64,000 nt of DNA, taken from the NCBI RefSeq assembly GCF_014610845.1, contig NZ_JABTCG010000003.1:124001-188000 (forward strand). Reading direction: 5' to 3'. A model generated the notes under the pieces. It did no database searches, was not told where the DNA came from, and was given only the letters and a program-made list of their open reading frames with translations. A program made the translations under genes and the position numbers. The stretch comes from Maribacter arenosus (GTDB lineage Bacteria; Bacteroidota; Bacteroidia; Flavobacteriales; Flavobacteriaceae). Below, one piece after another: positions 23,181 to 38,294 of this stretch (positions are counted from its first letter, which is position 1; each line of letters opens with the position of its first letter).

Positions 23181-23224
23181 ACTACAAAGAGCACTAAGAT
23201 TTACATAGGGCACACAAAGGTTTT
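23181..23224. repeat. Four degenerate 11-base units (phased array)
   Basis: ACTACAAAGAG, CACTAAGATTT, ACATAGGGCAC and ACAAAGGTTTT follow one another without gaps, each with an A-rich CANNANG-like core at the same place. The 11-base period is the same as that of the arrays around the GxxExxY gene at 36.7-37.2 kb. Low copy number and divergence make this tentative. Confidence 0.4.
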
Positions 23225-34919: not shown

Positions 34920-35569
34920 GAGACTTGCACTGAAGGGTATTCATGACATGCCTTTATATCCACTAAAGCGATCTTCGATTGCTTTTTGGCTGTTTTTCAG
35001 CAACATACATACATACTGTTACGATAAAAAGCCATCATAAAAGGCAAAATATTGCGATTTATAATAGATAATTGCTTATGCTTTCCTTAATTTGGCCATT
35101 GAAAACGGGGAATACATCCCTAGGCTATTTTTTTATCGTTCAATAACCATTGGCAATATCATAAAGTTGGGTAGCGGTTACTGGCATATGTTCATTTTGC
35201 GAACCCGTATATCAATAACCTCGTAATACTTGACCGATTTTTTAAAAAAACATTGCGACCTAAAAAAAAGCCTTTTATTTTCGTCTAAATTTTGTAGGGG
35301 ATATTCTAAGCCTTACAAGCACAGAATGCCGGGTCAACGCTAAGTACCCATTCTTAAAACTTATGCAAGTATTGTTGCCAAAAATTCATGTGGCTGACAT
35401 TGCGAAGCGCTATTTACCATTCAAATTTTACGGATTAAAGTGTAAGGTAATACTTCCTTAAATTACAGAATTAAAAGCTTTAAGTCCATTGATTTTTTGA
35501 ATCTCCCAAAAAAAGTCTTTGAGTAGGATATGGCCAAAAAAAATAAAAATAAATAATTCAGCAAATAGT
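34920..35569. other. 650-base leader between UpxY and gmd
   Basis: No convincing gene. Two short open frames here lack protein-like composition. A possible stem pairs GCTTTTT (near 34980) with AAAAAGC (near 35025). By analogy with other UpxY loci this may hold the site at which the antiterminator acts, or a premature terminator; neither is recognisable from sequence alone. Confidence 0.4.
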
Positions 35570-36682
35570 ATGAAAGTAGCATTTATCACCGGGGTAACGG
35601 GACAGGATGGGGCTTATTTGAGTGAGTTCCTATTAAAAAAAGGATATGAGGTACATGGCCTTAAACGAAGGGCCTCCTTGTTCAATACCGATAGGATCGA
35701 TCATTTATATCAGGATCCCCATGTTGAAAATCGAAATTTTGTTCTGCATTATGGCGATATGACCGATAGTACCAACCTCATACGCCTGATAAAGGAAATA
35801 CAGCCCGATGAGATCTATAACCTGGCCGCTATGAGCCATGTTCAGGTGTCGTTTGAAATTCCTGAATATACCGGGAATGCCGATGGTTTGGGTACCCTTC
35901 GTATATTGGATGCCGTTCGTTTGTTGGGCTTAGAGAAGAAAACCCGTATTTATCAGGCGTCCACTTCAGAACTGTACGGTAAGGTACAGGAAGTACCCCA
36001 ATCCGAGACCACCCCTTTTTATCCGCGTAGTCCCTATGCCGTGGCCAAAATGTATGCGTATTGGATTACGGTCAATTATCGGGAAGCTTATGGGATGTAT
36101 GCTTGTAATGGTATATTGTTCAACCACGAATCCCCGATACGGGGTGAGACTTTCGTGACCCGTAAAATCACAAGGGCAGCTGCCCGTATTTCCCTGGGCC
36201 TTCAAGACAAGTTTTATTTGGGTAACCTCGATGCCAAAAGGGATTGGGGCCACGCCAAGGATTATGTACGGATGATGTGGATGATCCTTCAGGCCGAGGA
36301 AGCCGAAGATTGGGTAATTGCCACTGGTAAGACGACCCCGGTAAGGGAGTTTGTAAGGATGGCCTTTAACGAAGTCGGCATTACTTTGGAGTTTAAAGGG
36401 AAAGGCATCAATGAAAAAGGATACGTGAAATCCTGTTCCAATCCGAAATTCCAATTGGAAATAGGGAAAGAGGTATTGTCGATAGATCCAAAATACTTTA
36501 GACCTACCGAAGTGGATCTTTTGATCGGCGATGCGAGCAAGGCGAACAACAAATTGGGTTGGATCCCTGAATATGACCTACAAGGGCTCGTCAAAGATAT
36601 GATGCAAAGCGATTTAAAACTGATGAATAAGGACCAGTATTTGAATAAAGGAGGATTTGATACACTTAATTATTATGAGTGA
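35570..36682 (+). CDS. gmd: GDP-mannose 4,6-dehydratase
   Basis: 370 residues from ATG 35570 ([20 protein letters not shown]); a TTG 17 codons upstream gives a poor N-terminus. [15 protein letters not shown] is the NADP-binding Rossmann motif, [15 protein letters not shown] and [17 protein letters not shown] are family signatures with the catalytic Thr/Ser-Glu, and [12 protein letters not shown] is the YxxxK pair. It converts GDP-D-mannose to GDP-4-keto-6-deoxy-D-mannose, the first committed step to GDP-L-fucose. The second-step gene is the next metabolic gene downstream (37212), with a small unrelated gene in between. No GDP-mannose-forming genes are in the window. Confidence 0.96.
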
Positions 36683-36695
36683 GATGTATATGGAT

Positions 36696-36724
36696 GCGAA
36701 TTTAGTGCGAATTAGATGCGAATT
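36696..36724 (+). repeat. Three GCGAATT units at an 11-base period, left of the GxxExxY gene
   Basis: GCGAATT is at 36696-36702, 36707-36713 and 36718-36724, so exactly 11 bases apart. On the other side of the gene the complement AATTCGC occurs at 37108, 37127 and 37138. The two arrays therefore face each other. Confidence 0.7.
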
Positions 36725-36738
36725 TCTATGAATAAATT

Positions 36739-37122
36739 ATGACTGAAATTGTCTTTAAAGAAGAAAGTTATAATATAATTGGGGCATGTATGAGGGTTCA
36801 TGCCGAGTTAGGTGCAGGGTTTCTTGAAGCAGTTTATCAAGAGGCATTGGAAAAAGAATTTATGGATAATAATATTCCATTTGAAAGGCATACCAAGTTA
36901 TCATTGTATTATAAAGAAGAAAAATTAAAGAAATACTATATAGCCGATTTTTTATGTTATGGCAAGATTATTTTGGAGTTGAAAGCATTACAATTTTTAC
37001 ATACGAACATAAACGATCAATTAGGAAATTATTTGAAAGCAACCAATTCGAGATTGGGTTTATTGGTAAATTTTGGCAAACCATCATTAGAGTATAGACG
37101 TATTTTAAATTCGCAGGCTTAG
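36739..37122 (+). CDS. GxxExxY family protein (PD-(D/E)XK nuclease-like), inserted between gmd and fcl
   Basis: 127 residues. Gly27-F-L-Glu30-A-V-Tyr33 is the motif that names the family (TIGR04256 as I recall). YIADFLCYGKIILELKAL has Asp70, Glu80 and Lys82 spaced like a PD-(D/E)XK nuclease site. Function unknown in the family. It has no part in fucose synthesis but splits the gmd-fcl pair, which is normally adjacent. The gene is flanked by facing arrays of GCGAATT at 11-base steps, and the left-most AATTCGC on the right side is inside its own last codons (N-S-Q-A-stop). Inference: a repeat-linked mobile or selfish nuclease-like gene. Confidence 0.85.
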   Translation: MTEIVFKEESYNIIGACMRVHAELGAGFLEAVYQEALEKEFMDNNIPFERHTKLSLYYKEEKLKKYYIADFLCYGKIILELKALQFLHTNINDQLGNYLKATNSRLGLLVNFGKPSLEYRRILNSQA

Positions 37123-37155
37123 TATAAATTCGCACCTAATTCGCAAGAATTTGTC
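37108..37155 (-). repeat. AATTCGC units right of the GxxExxY gene, facing the left array
   Basis: AATTCGC is at 37108-37114 (inside the gene end), 37127-37133 and 37138-37144, with a weaker ATTTGTC 11 bases further. They are the reverse complement of the GCGAATT units at 36696-36724. Confidence 0.65.
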
Positions 37156-37211
37156 AAAATCATTTATTATTTCTGTGAAATCCTTTTCTAAATCCGTGTA
37201 ATAAGAATAGC

Positions 37212-38294
37212 ATGATTAAATCATCAAAAATATATATTGCGGGCCATAGGGGTTTGGTCGGTAGTGCCATTTTAAAGAACCTGGAGGCCAAAGGGTATAG
37301 CAATTTTGTGACCCGGACCCATAAAGCGTTGGATTTAACGGACAGTACGGCCGTGGCCAATTTCTTTGCGCTCGAAAAACCGGAATATGTGTTTTTGGCA
37401 GCGGCCAAGGTAGGGGGTATCGTAGCCAATAATACCTATAGGGCAGATTTTATCTATGCCAACCTGATGATCCAAAACAACGTGATCCACCAAGCCTATC
37501 TGCACGGGGTAAAAAAATTGCTGTTCTTGGGGAGCACCTGTATTTATCCTAAGAATTGTCCACAACCGATGAAGGAAGACTATCTATTGACCGATGTTTT
37601 GGAGTATACCAATGAGCCCTATGCCATTGCGAAGATAGCGGGTATAAAAATGTGTGAGAGTTACAACCTGCAATACGGCACTAATTTTATTTCGGTAATG
37701 CCCACGAATCTTTATGGTCCCAATGATAATTTTGATTTGGAAAAGTCCCATGTGCTACCGGCCTTGGTTCGGAAAATGCATTTGGGAAAGGCCCTTGAAA
37801 ATAACGATTGGGAGGGCATTCGTAAGGATTTGGACCGTTTGCCTATTGAAGGTGTCAATGGTTCCTCGGAAAAGGATGTGATCTATAGCATTCTCGACAA
37901 ATATGGCATTCAACAAAAAGAAGATGCAGTGTATCTCGAAATTTGGGGAAGCGGCAAGCCCATGCGCGAATTCCTTTGGAGCGAGGATATGGCCGATGCC
38001 TGTGTGTTTTTAATGGAAAACAGGGATTTTAAGGATTGTTATGCCGATGGCACCAAGGAAATCCGGAATACCCATATAAACATTGGTACCGGGAAAGACA
38101 TCGCGATCAAGGACCTGGGTGAAGTTATTAAAAAAACTGTTGGTTTCAAGGGTACCCTCTTTTTTAATACCGATAAACCAGACGGTACCCTCAAGAAACT
38201 CACCGATCCCTCCAAACTACATCAACTGGGCTGGAAACACACCATCGAATTGGGGGAGGGTGTGGCCAAGGCCTATCAGTGGTATACCCGTTAA
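37212..38294 (+). CDS. fcl: GDP-L-fucose synthase
   Basis: 360 residues. IYIAGHRGLVGSAILKNLEA is the NADP-binding start, KVGGIVANNTYRADFIYANL and FLGSTCIYPKNCPQPMKED are family signatures, and NEPYAIAKIAGIKM holds the YxxxK pair. The enzyme epimerises and reduces GDP-4-keto-6-deoxy-mannose to GDP-L-fucose. It is longer than the E. coli enzyme because of an insert around residues 200-235 (IRKDLDRLPIEGVNGSSEKD), which I recall as usual in Bacteroidota. With gmd it supplies fucose for the exopolysaccharide built by the transferases downstream. Confidence 0.95.
   Translation: MIKSSKIYIAGHRGLVGSAILKNLEAKGYSNFVTRTHKALDLTDSTAVANFFALEKPEYVFLAAAKVGGIVANNTYRADFIYANLMIQNNVIHQAYLHGVKKLLFLGSTCIYPKNCPQPMKEDYLLTDVLEYTNEPYAIAKIAGIKMCESYNLQYGTNFISVMPTNLYGPNDNFDLEKSHVLPALVRKMHLGKALENNDWEGIRKDLDRLPIEGVNGSSEKDVIYSILDKYGIQQKEDAVYLEIWGSGKPMREFLWSEDMADACVFLMENRDFKDCYADGTKEIRNTHINIGTGKDIAIKDLGEVIKKTVGFKGTLFFNTDKPDGTLKKLTDPSKLHQLGWKHTIELGEGVAKAYQWYTR

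Follow-up and report, generated by a model that had tools for sequence, protein, structure and literature searches.

A GxxExxY nuclease gene between facing four-unit sites: a probable compact selfish DNA unit in operon junctions of Bacteroidota

Between the gmd and fcl genes of Maribacter arenosus, a gene for a small nuclease-like protein of the GxxExxY family is framed by two inward-facing sites, and this arrangement recurs, with variation that follows the clade of the protein, across the protein family. The locus belongs to a 64,000-nt stretch of DNA (hereafter, the window) and appears to represent a compact selfish unit of DNA, with a nuclease that recognises the sites at the unit's own ends (probability of roughly 0.6). 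Such a unit would consist of a single gene for a small PD-(D/E)XK nuclease resembling Cas4 and lambda exonuclease, located between two sites, each composed of four degenerate units of 7 bases that follow one another at intervals of roughly one helical turn. The nuclease would recognise these units, its subunits probably lined up along a single face of the DNA, one to each unit, and would act at both sites as the ends of the element; the gene together with both ends could then enter intergenic junctions of operons and be expressed by read-through, and solo sites as well as facing pairs that lack the gene would be non-autonomous or decayed derivatives.

The element in the gmd–fcl junction

The insert between the stop codon of gmd and the start of fcl is 529 nt long (36683–37211, forward strand). 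According to the ORF listing, it is preceded by gmd (GDP-mannose 4,6-dehydratase; 35519–36682, forward strand; TIGR01472, E = 8e-181, above the cut-off) and followed by an fcl-like gene (GDP-L-fucose synthase; 37212–38294, forward strand), which matches NF047922 with E = 2e-133 and 444 bits, under the model cut-off of 500. The gene in between (36739–37122, forward strand) encodes a protein of 127 amino acids which, by both curated models, is a near full-length member of the GxxExxY, or PDDEXK_3, family, so named from a motif only (PF13366, E = 7e-37, 126.8 bits, cut-off 22; TIGR04256, E = 4e-39, 133.6 bits, cut-off 35). Searches of Pfam and NCBIfam with this protein returned only this family, and the gene is the sole PF13366 match in the 4.17-Mb assembly.

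The first-pass annotation placed GCGAATT at 36696, 36707 and 36718, and its complement at 37108, 37127 and 37138, in two arrays with an 11-base period. All these positions were confirmed, as was the orientation of the two arrays, which face each other around the gene, but there are four units per side, not three. The 11-base period holds for the GCGAATT copies upstream but not for the downstream ones, which are spaced by 19 and 11 bases; the 19-base gap conceals a degenerate unit, CTTAGTA (37118–37124), and upstream, the fourth unit is also degenerate (TATGAAT, 36727–36733). The upstream site points toward the gene (36695–36733, forward strand; three copies of TGCGAAT and TATGAAT, spacing 11-11-10), and the downstream site faces it (37109–37145, reverse strand; TGCGAAT, TGCGAAT, TACTAAG and TGCGAAT, spacing 11-10-9); relative to the family consensus YRCNRAK (see below), the former has one mismatch and the latter none. 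The downstream site begins within the gene, with the first unit in the last codons and the second over the stop codon.

When the entire window was scanned for coherent sets of four units, one mismatch being tolerated, only the two sites flanking the gene (the downstream one in two overlapping registers) and a lone site at 23183–23219 were recovered; the same scan of three shuffled windows yielded none at this threshold and 0, 4 and 0 sites at two mismatches. The lone site (TACAAAG, CACTAAG, TACATAG, CACAAAG) precedes a 714-aa ORF, 13.5 kb from the only PF13366 match in the window. Just before fcl, visual inspection detects what looks like the remnant of an array from a different unit class (CACGGAT .. 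CACAGA; 37172–37204, reverse strand) ending in GTGTAATAA, an outer end that, compared by eye, is frequent in CACAGAG-class elements; it is possibly the trace of an earlier element in this junction.

Viewed in isolation, the window might be explained by chance, that is, low-complexity repeats beside an ordinary gene: GCGAATT alone is only mildly enriched (17 copies in the whole window against 10.3 expected, with 6 of the 17 within 450 bases at the GxxExxY gene), and elsewhere in the bacterial family, triple GCGAAT patterns are about as frequent as their reversed control. The looser GCGAAT pattern is not discriminating, being found in 13 of the 397 genomes (7 with the gene and 6 without) compared with 7 genomes for the reversed control. 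At the level of the family, the chance explanation is refuted by shuffled and distal controls at 130 loci and by a hold-out set of 89 genes, and we consider it negligible.

Facing arrays across the GxxExxY family

Genes matching PF13366 are present in 102 of the 397 genomes of the bacterial family to which M. arenosus belongs, and TIGR04256 genes in 152 of the 296 genomes of its phylum. Altogether, 140 loci were fetched, mostly the best-scoring places among the matches listed rather than random draws; the gene was found by profile in 138 of these, and 132 of the 143 gene matches were used, the other 11 being partial or identical proteins. In the 200-nt flanks, identical 6-mers recur at lags of 8, 9, 10, 11 and 12 bases in 162, 250, 281, 82 and 93 pairs, respectively, compared with 14–17 in shuffled sequences. 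With 150-nt flanks and two of the 132 loci omitted from the per-locus test for their short flanks, 80 of 130 loci reach the 0.01 level on their own, by facing matches or by period, compared with 1 of 129 distal controls; at 22 of the 130, no array is significant at 0.05 when exact k-mers are required.

The array units match YRCNRAK, with CACAGAG, CGCAAAG, CACGGAT, CACGAAT and TGCGAAT among the variants. At the 132 genes, the density of this motif per 120 nt is 2.37 toward the gene and 0.76 away from it upstream, 2.43 and 0.80 downstream, and 0.57 and 0.48 in distal controls. Successive units are mostly 8–11 bases apart, with phased units on both sides at 73 loci. The combination of phased arrays that face each other with active-site residues of the nuclease kind, described at first for the window, is real and present family-wide, and the presence of arrays on at least one side at 105 of the 132 loci speaks against the possibility, raised in the first-pass annotation, that the gene occurs in such places without them. 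Strict 11-base phasing is not general in the family and is ruled out by spacings of 8–12 bases that differ between unit classes, 10-11-10 being the commonest.

Because the motif had been derived from the 132 training loci, it was tested on a hold-out set of 89 genes. These belong to the same phylum but to other families, orders and classes, and were likewise taken from the best-scoring matches listed; a copy of a training locus (L175) and 2 of 91 domain matches had been dropped beforehand. In this set, the motif densities toward and away from the gene are 2.62 and 0.82 upstream, 2.78 and 1.07 downstream, and 0.52 and 0.52 in the control; the spacing again peaks at 8–11 bases, and units are present on at least one side at 74 of the 89 genes and on both sides at 49. 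In a copy from Arenibacter latericius (L115), the gene contains in-frame stops and the arrays are still recognisable.

The four-unit site and its match to the protein clade

When the best four-unit site was taken for each flank of 221 genes, it had no more than two mismatches in 108 of the upstream flanks and 95 of the downstream flanks, compared with none of 442 shuffled flanks. The commonest spacing, 10-11-10, is followed by 10-12-10 and 9-11-9, so that the layout is one of two unit pairs with a slightly longer gap between the pairs and about one helical turn per unit; of the 58 sites without mismatches, 56 stop at the fourth unit. The 10-11-10 spacing occurs mainly with CACAGAG-type units; that of window-type sites (G at position 2, T at position 7) is more mixed and includes 11-10-10 and 11-11-10. 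Outside the Bacteroidota, the scan gives a weak signal: sites with at most two mismatches were found, on one side each, at two (L127 and L138) of the seven named loci scanned (the others being L129, L130, L132, L133 and L135), and several named loci of other phyla have arrays that look related by eye.

In the protein tree, which covers the 86 members with three or more units (46 of the 132, with fewer, were left out), position 7 of the unit (44 G, 40 T) changes only twice, compared with a mean of 28.3 changes and a minimum of 23 in 200 shuffles; for positions 2, 5, 1 and 4, there are 7, 9, 1 and 7 changes against shuffled means of 26.1, 27.1, 5.8 and 17.4, respectively. The unit-class distance between copies in the same genome (2.12; 25 pairs) is close to that between copies in different genomes (2.16; 1082 sampled pairs). 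The class of the units, as judged from these comparisons, follows the clade of the protein, not the genome. When the majority letters in the hold-out set were predicted from the nearest training protein, 43 of 61 were correct at position 2 (shuffled mean 30.8, maximum 43) and 36 of 55 at position 5 (25.0 and 36); the 55 of 59 at position 7 (49.7 and 55) make a weak test because nearly all letters are G, and position 4 carries no signal (17 of 26 against a baseline of 17.7).

The link between unit class and protein owes part of its strength to the shared descent of the gene and its flanks, and in non-coding flanks of proteins with 35–45% identity, units would hardly be kept without selection. 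Recognition of the units by the protein is well supported by these comparisons, and the protein presumably binds them. Residues 10, 17, 22, 92 and 116, among others, are linked to the unit class and are candidates only, because clade effects are still in the data. At the level of comparison among loci, the architecture of the element, the four-unit site and the match of class to clade can be considered established.

The protein is predicted to be a PD-(D/E)XK nuclease

The nuclease-like residues pointed out initially, Asp70, Glu80 and Lys82, are conserved in 221, 218 and 221 of the 221 family proteins, respectively; E30 is present in 220 of 220, and Q94 and Y98 in 98–99%. The window protein has the intact E30-D70-ExK-QxxxY set, and its AlphaFold2 model (mean pLDDT 95) retrieves PD-(D/E)XK nucleases, mainly DNA nucleases, as the top Foldseek matches. 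The nearest solved fold is that of Cas4 SSO0001 (4ic1; E = 5e-4; VIA Z 8.6, rmsd 4.1 over 101 residues), and lambda exonuclease (E = 3e-3), LHK-Exo and AddAB are other near folds; the remaining VIA rows, with Z <8, indicate a restriction-endonuclease kind of fold only. By the modelled fold and the E..D..ExK residues, the protein can be assigned to the PD-(D/E)XK superfamily; a search by sequence returned no convincing solved relative (best E = 0.29).

Cas4 typically contains four cysteines for an iron–sulphur cluster. The window protein resembles Cas4, lambda exonuclease and AddB in its nearest solved folds and its E-D-ExK-QxxxY set but differs from Cas4 in its size of 127 amino acids, in its link to repeat sites of its own and in having two cysteines only, C17 and C73, and therefore no four-cysteine iron–sulphur site.

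Insertion into operon junctions and exchange of modules

The gene was suspected to be an insertion in view of the usual adjacency of gmd and fcl, and this interpretation is upheld by the 11 relatives with an fcl match. In 8 of the 11, the two genes directly adjoin, overlapping or lying at most 10 nt apart, and in G404, they are separated by a 91-nt spacer without a gene (the gaps of L148, L151, L153 and L154 were settled by eye; the automatic values for L148, L151 and L154 were negative, reflecting overlap or the choice of an upstream start codon). In G258, which belongs to the same genus, the junction holds a truncated 23S-IVP gene (PF05635, E = 4e-20) with a short-period array of its own, and in G406, from another family of the same order, a GxxExxY gene of another clade (L150:90-630; TIGR04256, E = 5e-45) with sites of the CACAAAG/CACAGAG type, the downstream one spaced 10-11-10. 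GxxExxY genes with GCGAATT-type arrays are also found between gmd and fcl in Cerina litoralis, Arenibacter nanhaiticus and an Ichthyobacteriaceae MAG, after fcl in Prolixibacteraceae, and in the cysD/cysN gap of several Flavobacteriaceae, all these neighbours being putative, as read from the flanks.

A second junction lies between map (TIGR00500) and a methyltransferase-like gene that is present in 19 of 20 chosen genomes. Here, G395 and G013 carry an element of the CACAGAG class and G244, from the same genus, one of the CACGAAT class; the class likewise differs in G084/G291, G248/G019 and G088/G292, in four genera altogether. By eye, this difference involves the gene and both sites together. 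There is no GxxExxY gene at this place in G247, G073, G018 and G148 (gaps of 11, 42, 168 and 331 nt, respectively). Junctions without an insert, the kind of empty allele that a homing endonuclease would cleave, exist at both gmd–fcl and map–methyltransferase, and no target-site duplication was seen by eye at either, the flanks being too diverged; the compared loci show no excision footprint or movement. On the strength of these comparisons, the occurrence of different modules, each a gene with its matching sites, at the same junctions, the empty junctions and the conservation of the active site can be considered established.

Sites away from the gene

A three-unit CACAGAG pattern is present in 42 of the 397 genomes of the bacterial family, 39 of which carry PF13366, that is, in 39 of the 102 genomes with the gene compared with 3 of the 295 without it (Fisher p = 1e-22); the reversed pattern was found in a single genome. 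Thus, at least in the CACAGAG class, arrays are rare in gene-free genomes and do not occur everywhere regardless of the gene, a possibility that had also been raised at the outset. Among the fetched genes, from lists that are incomplete, a class-G gene is present in 29 of the 42 pattern-positive genomes compared with 14 of the 38 fetched pattern-negative ones. The exact window-class pattern occurs in the M. arenosus genome only at the window gene, with no solo arrays.

Many CACAGAG matches are located away from any gene of the family. The 20 stretches around such distant sites contain lone four-unit sites, facing pairs (with a short loop in G365, G027 and G395), diverging pairs and tandem copies. 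Two genomes have many CACAGAG sites, yet the sole known gene of G135 is of class T, and the one gene match of G291 is weak (E = 3e-9). In G135 and G084, CACAGAG sites are found inside dispersed repeats with a common outer sequence (L276-L288, L296-L305), exemplified in G084 by TTACTCTTGCGGGGTGATTA, and some of these repeats bear a second, CACGAAT-type array. At one orthologous intergenic place (L291 / L373 / L072), G395 and G013 have a facing pair with 50 of 56 unit positions and 9 of 19 spacer positions identical, and G244 has a differently built pair with a GxxExxY gene beside the pair, not inside it; the comparison of these three genomes at this place lends no support to an origin of solo sites by simple deletion. 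Eight plasmid records contain relatives of the protein, all with <60% identity, and no phage record with the protein was found.

The solo sites in several genomes would also be expected if the protein were a regulator with a nuclease fold that represses its own operon, with the sites as operators and the solo sites as its regulon, and the position of the sites next to the gene and the match of unit class to protein fit this scheme as well. A further site after the gene, facing back, the nearly invariant catalytic residues, and the finding that the same junction in relatives is empty or holds an element of another class all count against such a regulator, which we consider quite improbable.

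DNA or RNA

A different kind of selfish element, acting at the RNA level, is suggested by the intervening sequences of 23S rRNA. Under this explanation, the arrays pair in the transcript to form a long stem that closes the gene; the stem is cut by a host double-strand RNase or by the protein itself, so that insertion into an operon is tolerated, and the protein reads the stem or the single-stranded array rather than duplex DNA. In Coxiella, the intervening sequence has been described as selfish; it contains heptameric repeats, and RNase III cuts its terminal stem of 28 bp (PMC4990558). The 23S-IVP family (PF05635), an unrelated four-helix protein, is found in 89 of 120 genomes of the bacterial family, with 11 matches in M. 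arenosus itself, and 30 pooled IVP loci (L325-L354) also have facing arrays, with a period of 7–8 bases and multiples thereof (103 and 42 pairs at lags 7 and 8 compared with 2 and 1 in one shuffle; facing pairs 19.4 compared with 6.5). A further IVP place is L146:1132-1389, and IVP genes have been reported in cas loci (PMC3936711).

Several observations on the GxxExxY loci are compatible with an RNA stem. The predicted duplex between upstream and downstream arrays is stronger for a locus's own pair than for class-matched swaps (−40.6 against −33.8 kcal/mol; own stronger in 91 of 134), which favours this explanation, and the spacers are more alike within a locus (identity 0.41 against 0.33 for swaps); the predicted RNA fold of the window element has both arrays paired around the gene; and, of 213 loci, 166 have the gene co-directional with both neighbours and 7 have it opposite to both (8 of the 221 loci, without both neighbours, were left out). 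However, the fold of the whole element is only mildly better than that of shuffled sequences (z = −1.64; 4 of 100 shuffles equally good), some four-unit sites located far away from a gene of the family stand singly and unpaired while others form diverging pairs, and the nearest folds are mainly those of DNA nucleases. DNA is favoured by the spacing in helical turns, by the solo sites that have no partner and by a fold of the DNA-nuclease kind, and we regard the RNA stem as unlikely. In the preferred reading, a selfish DNA unit, DNA would be the substrate that the nuclease cuts, and movement would be driven by the nuclease.

Relation to known systems and implications

The similarity to the 23S rRNA intervening sequences lies in a small ORF between inverted arrays of short repeats in a selfish element (PMC4990558), and in the truncated IVP gene that occupies the gmd–fcl junction in the same-genus relative. 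The intervening sequences, however, encode a four-helix protein, have repeats of about 7 bases and, in the described cases, lie within 23S rRNA genes, whereas the GxxExxY element encodes a nuclease, has four-unit sites with 8–12-base spacing and is located between protein genes; the window protein, while it is surrounded by inverted terminal repeats, matches PF13366 only and not PF05635.

RAYT genes lie between inverted copies of a short element, further copies of which are dispersed without the gene, and the RAYTs are HUH tyrosine enzymes that act on hairpin REPs. The GxxExxY element shares with REPIN/RAYT the gene between inverted copies of a short element; gene-free copies are seen in other genomes, and in M. 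arenosus the exact class pattern occurs only at the gene. The element differs in that the window protein is of the PD-(D/E)XK kind, not an HUH tyrosine transposase, and in that the sites are arrays of four units. Among 5.39 million open papers of PubMed Central, with subscription papers and preprints outside the scope, two mention the GxxExxY protein, both in passing, and one contains PF13366, and no description of flanking four-unit sites was found; open papers on REPIN/RAYT with Bacteroidetes and on intervening sequences likewise yielded nothing on a GxxExxY system.

The element looks like a very compact and so far undescribed kind of selfish DNA. Somewhat more tentatively, at slightly under even odds, it may represent a kind of mobile DNA not recognised before, namely, an autonomous unit of about 0.5 kb with one nuclease of about 125 amino acids and two four-unit ends, in which one subunit would read each helical turn with an evolving code (YRCNRAK in Bacteroidota). 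Under this broader proposal, the gene would have relatives in several other phyla, facing pairs without the gene would be satellites, and the units would compete for operon junctions with a parallel guild of IVP elements characterised by a four-helix protein and 7-base units.

The gene is widespread in the family and the phylum, and the papers found assign it no function; now that it is linked to a defined four-unit site specific to the clade, this function can be tested directly, as binding, cutting or movement. The covariation of protein and site over many examples provides a natural recognition code. If the proposal is correct, it would account for a class of dispersed CACAGAG-type repeats, and the parallel with the IVP loci suggests that the intervening sequences of rRNA may belong to a broader class of tiny elements that carry facing arrays, of which they would form one corner.
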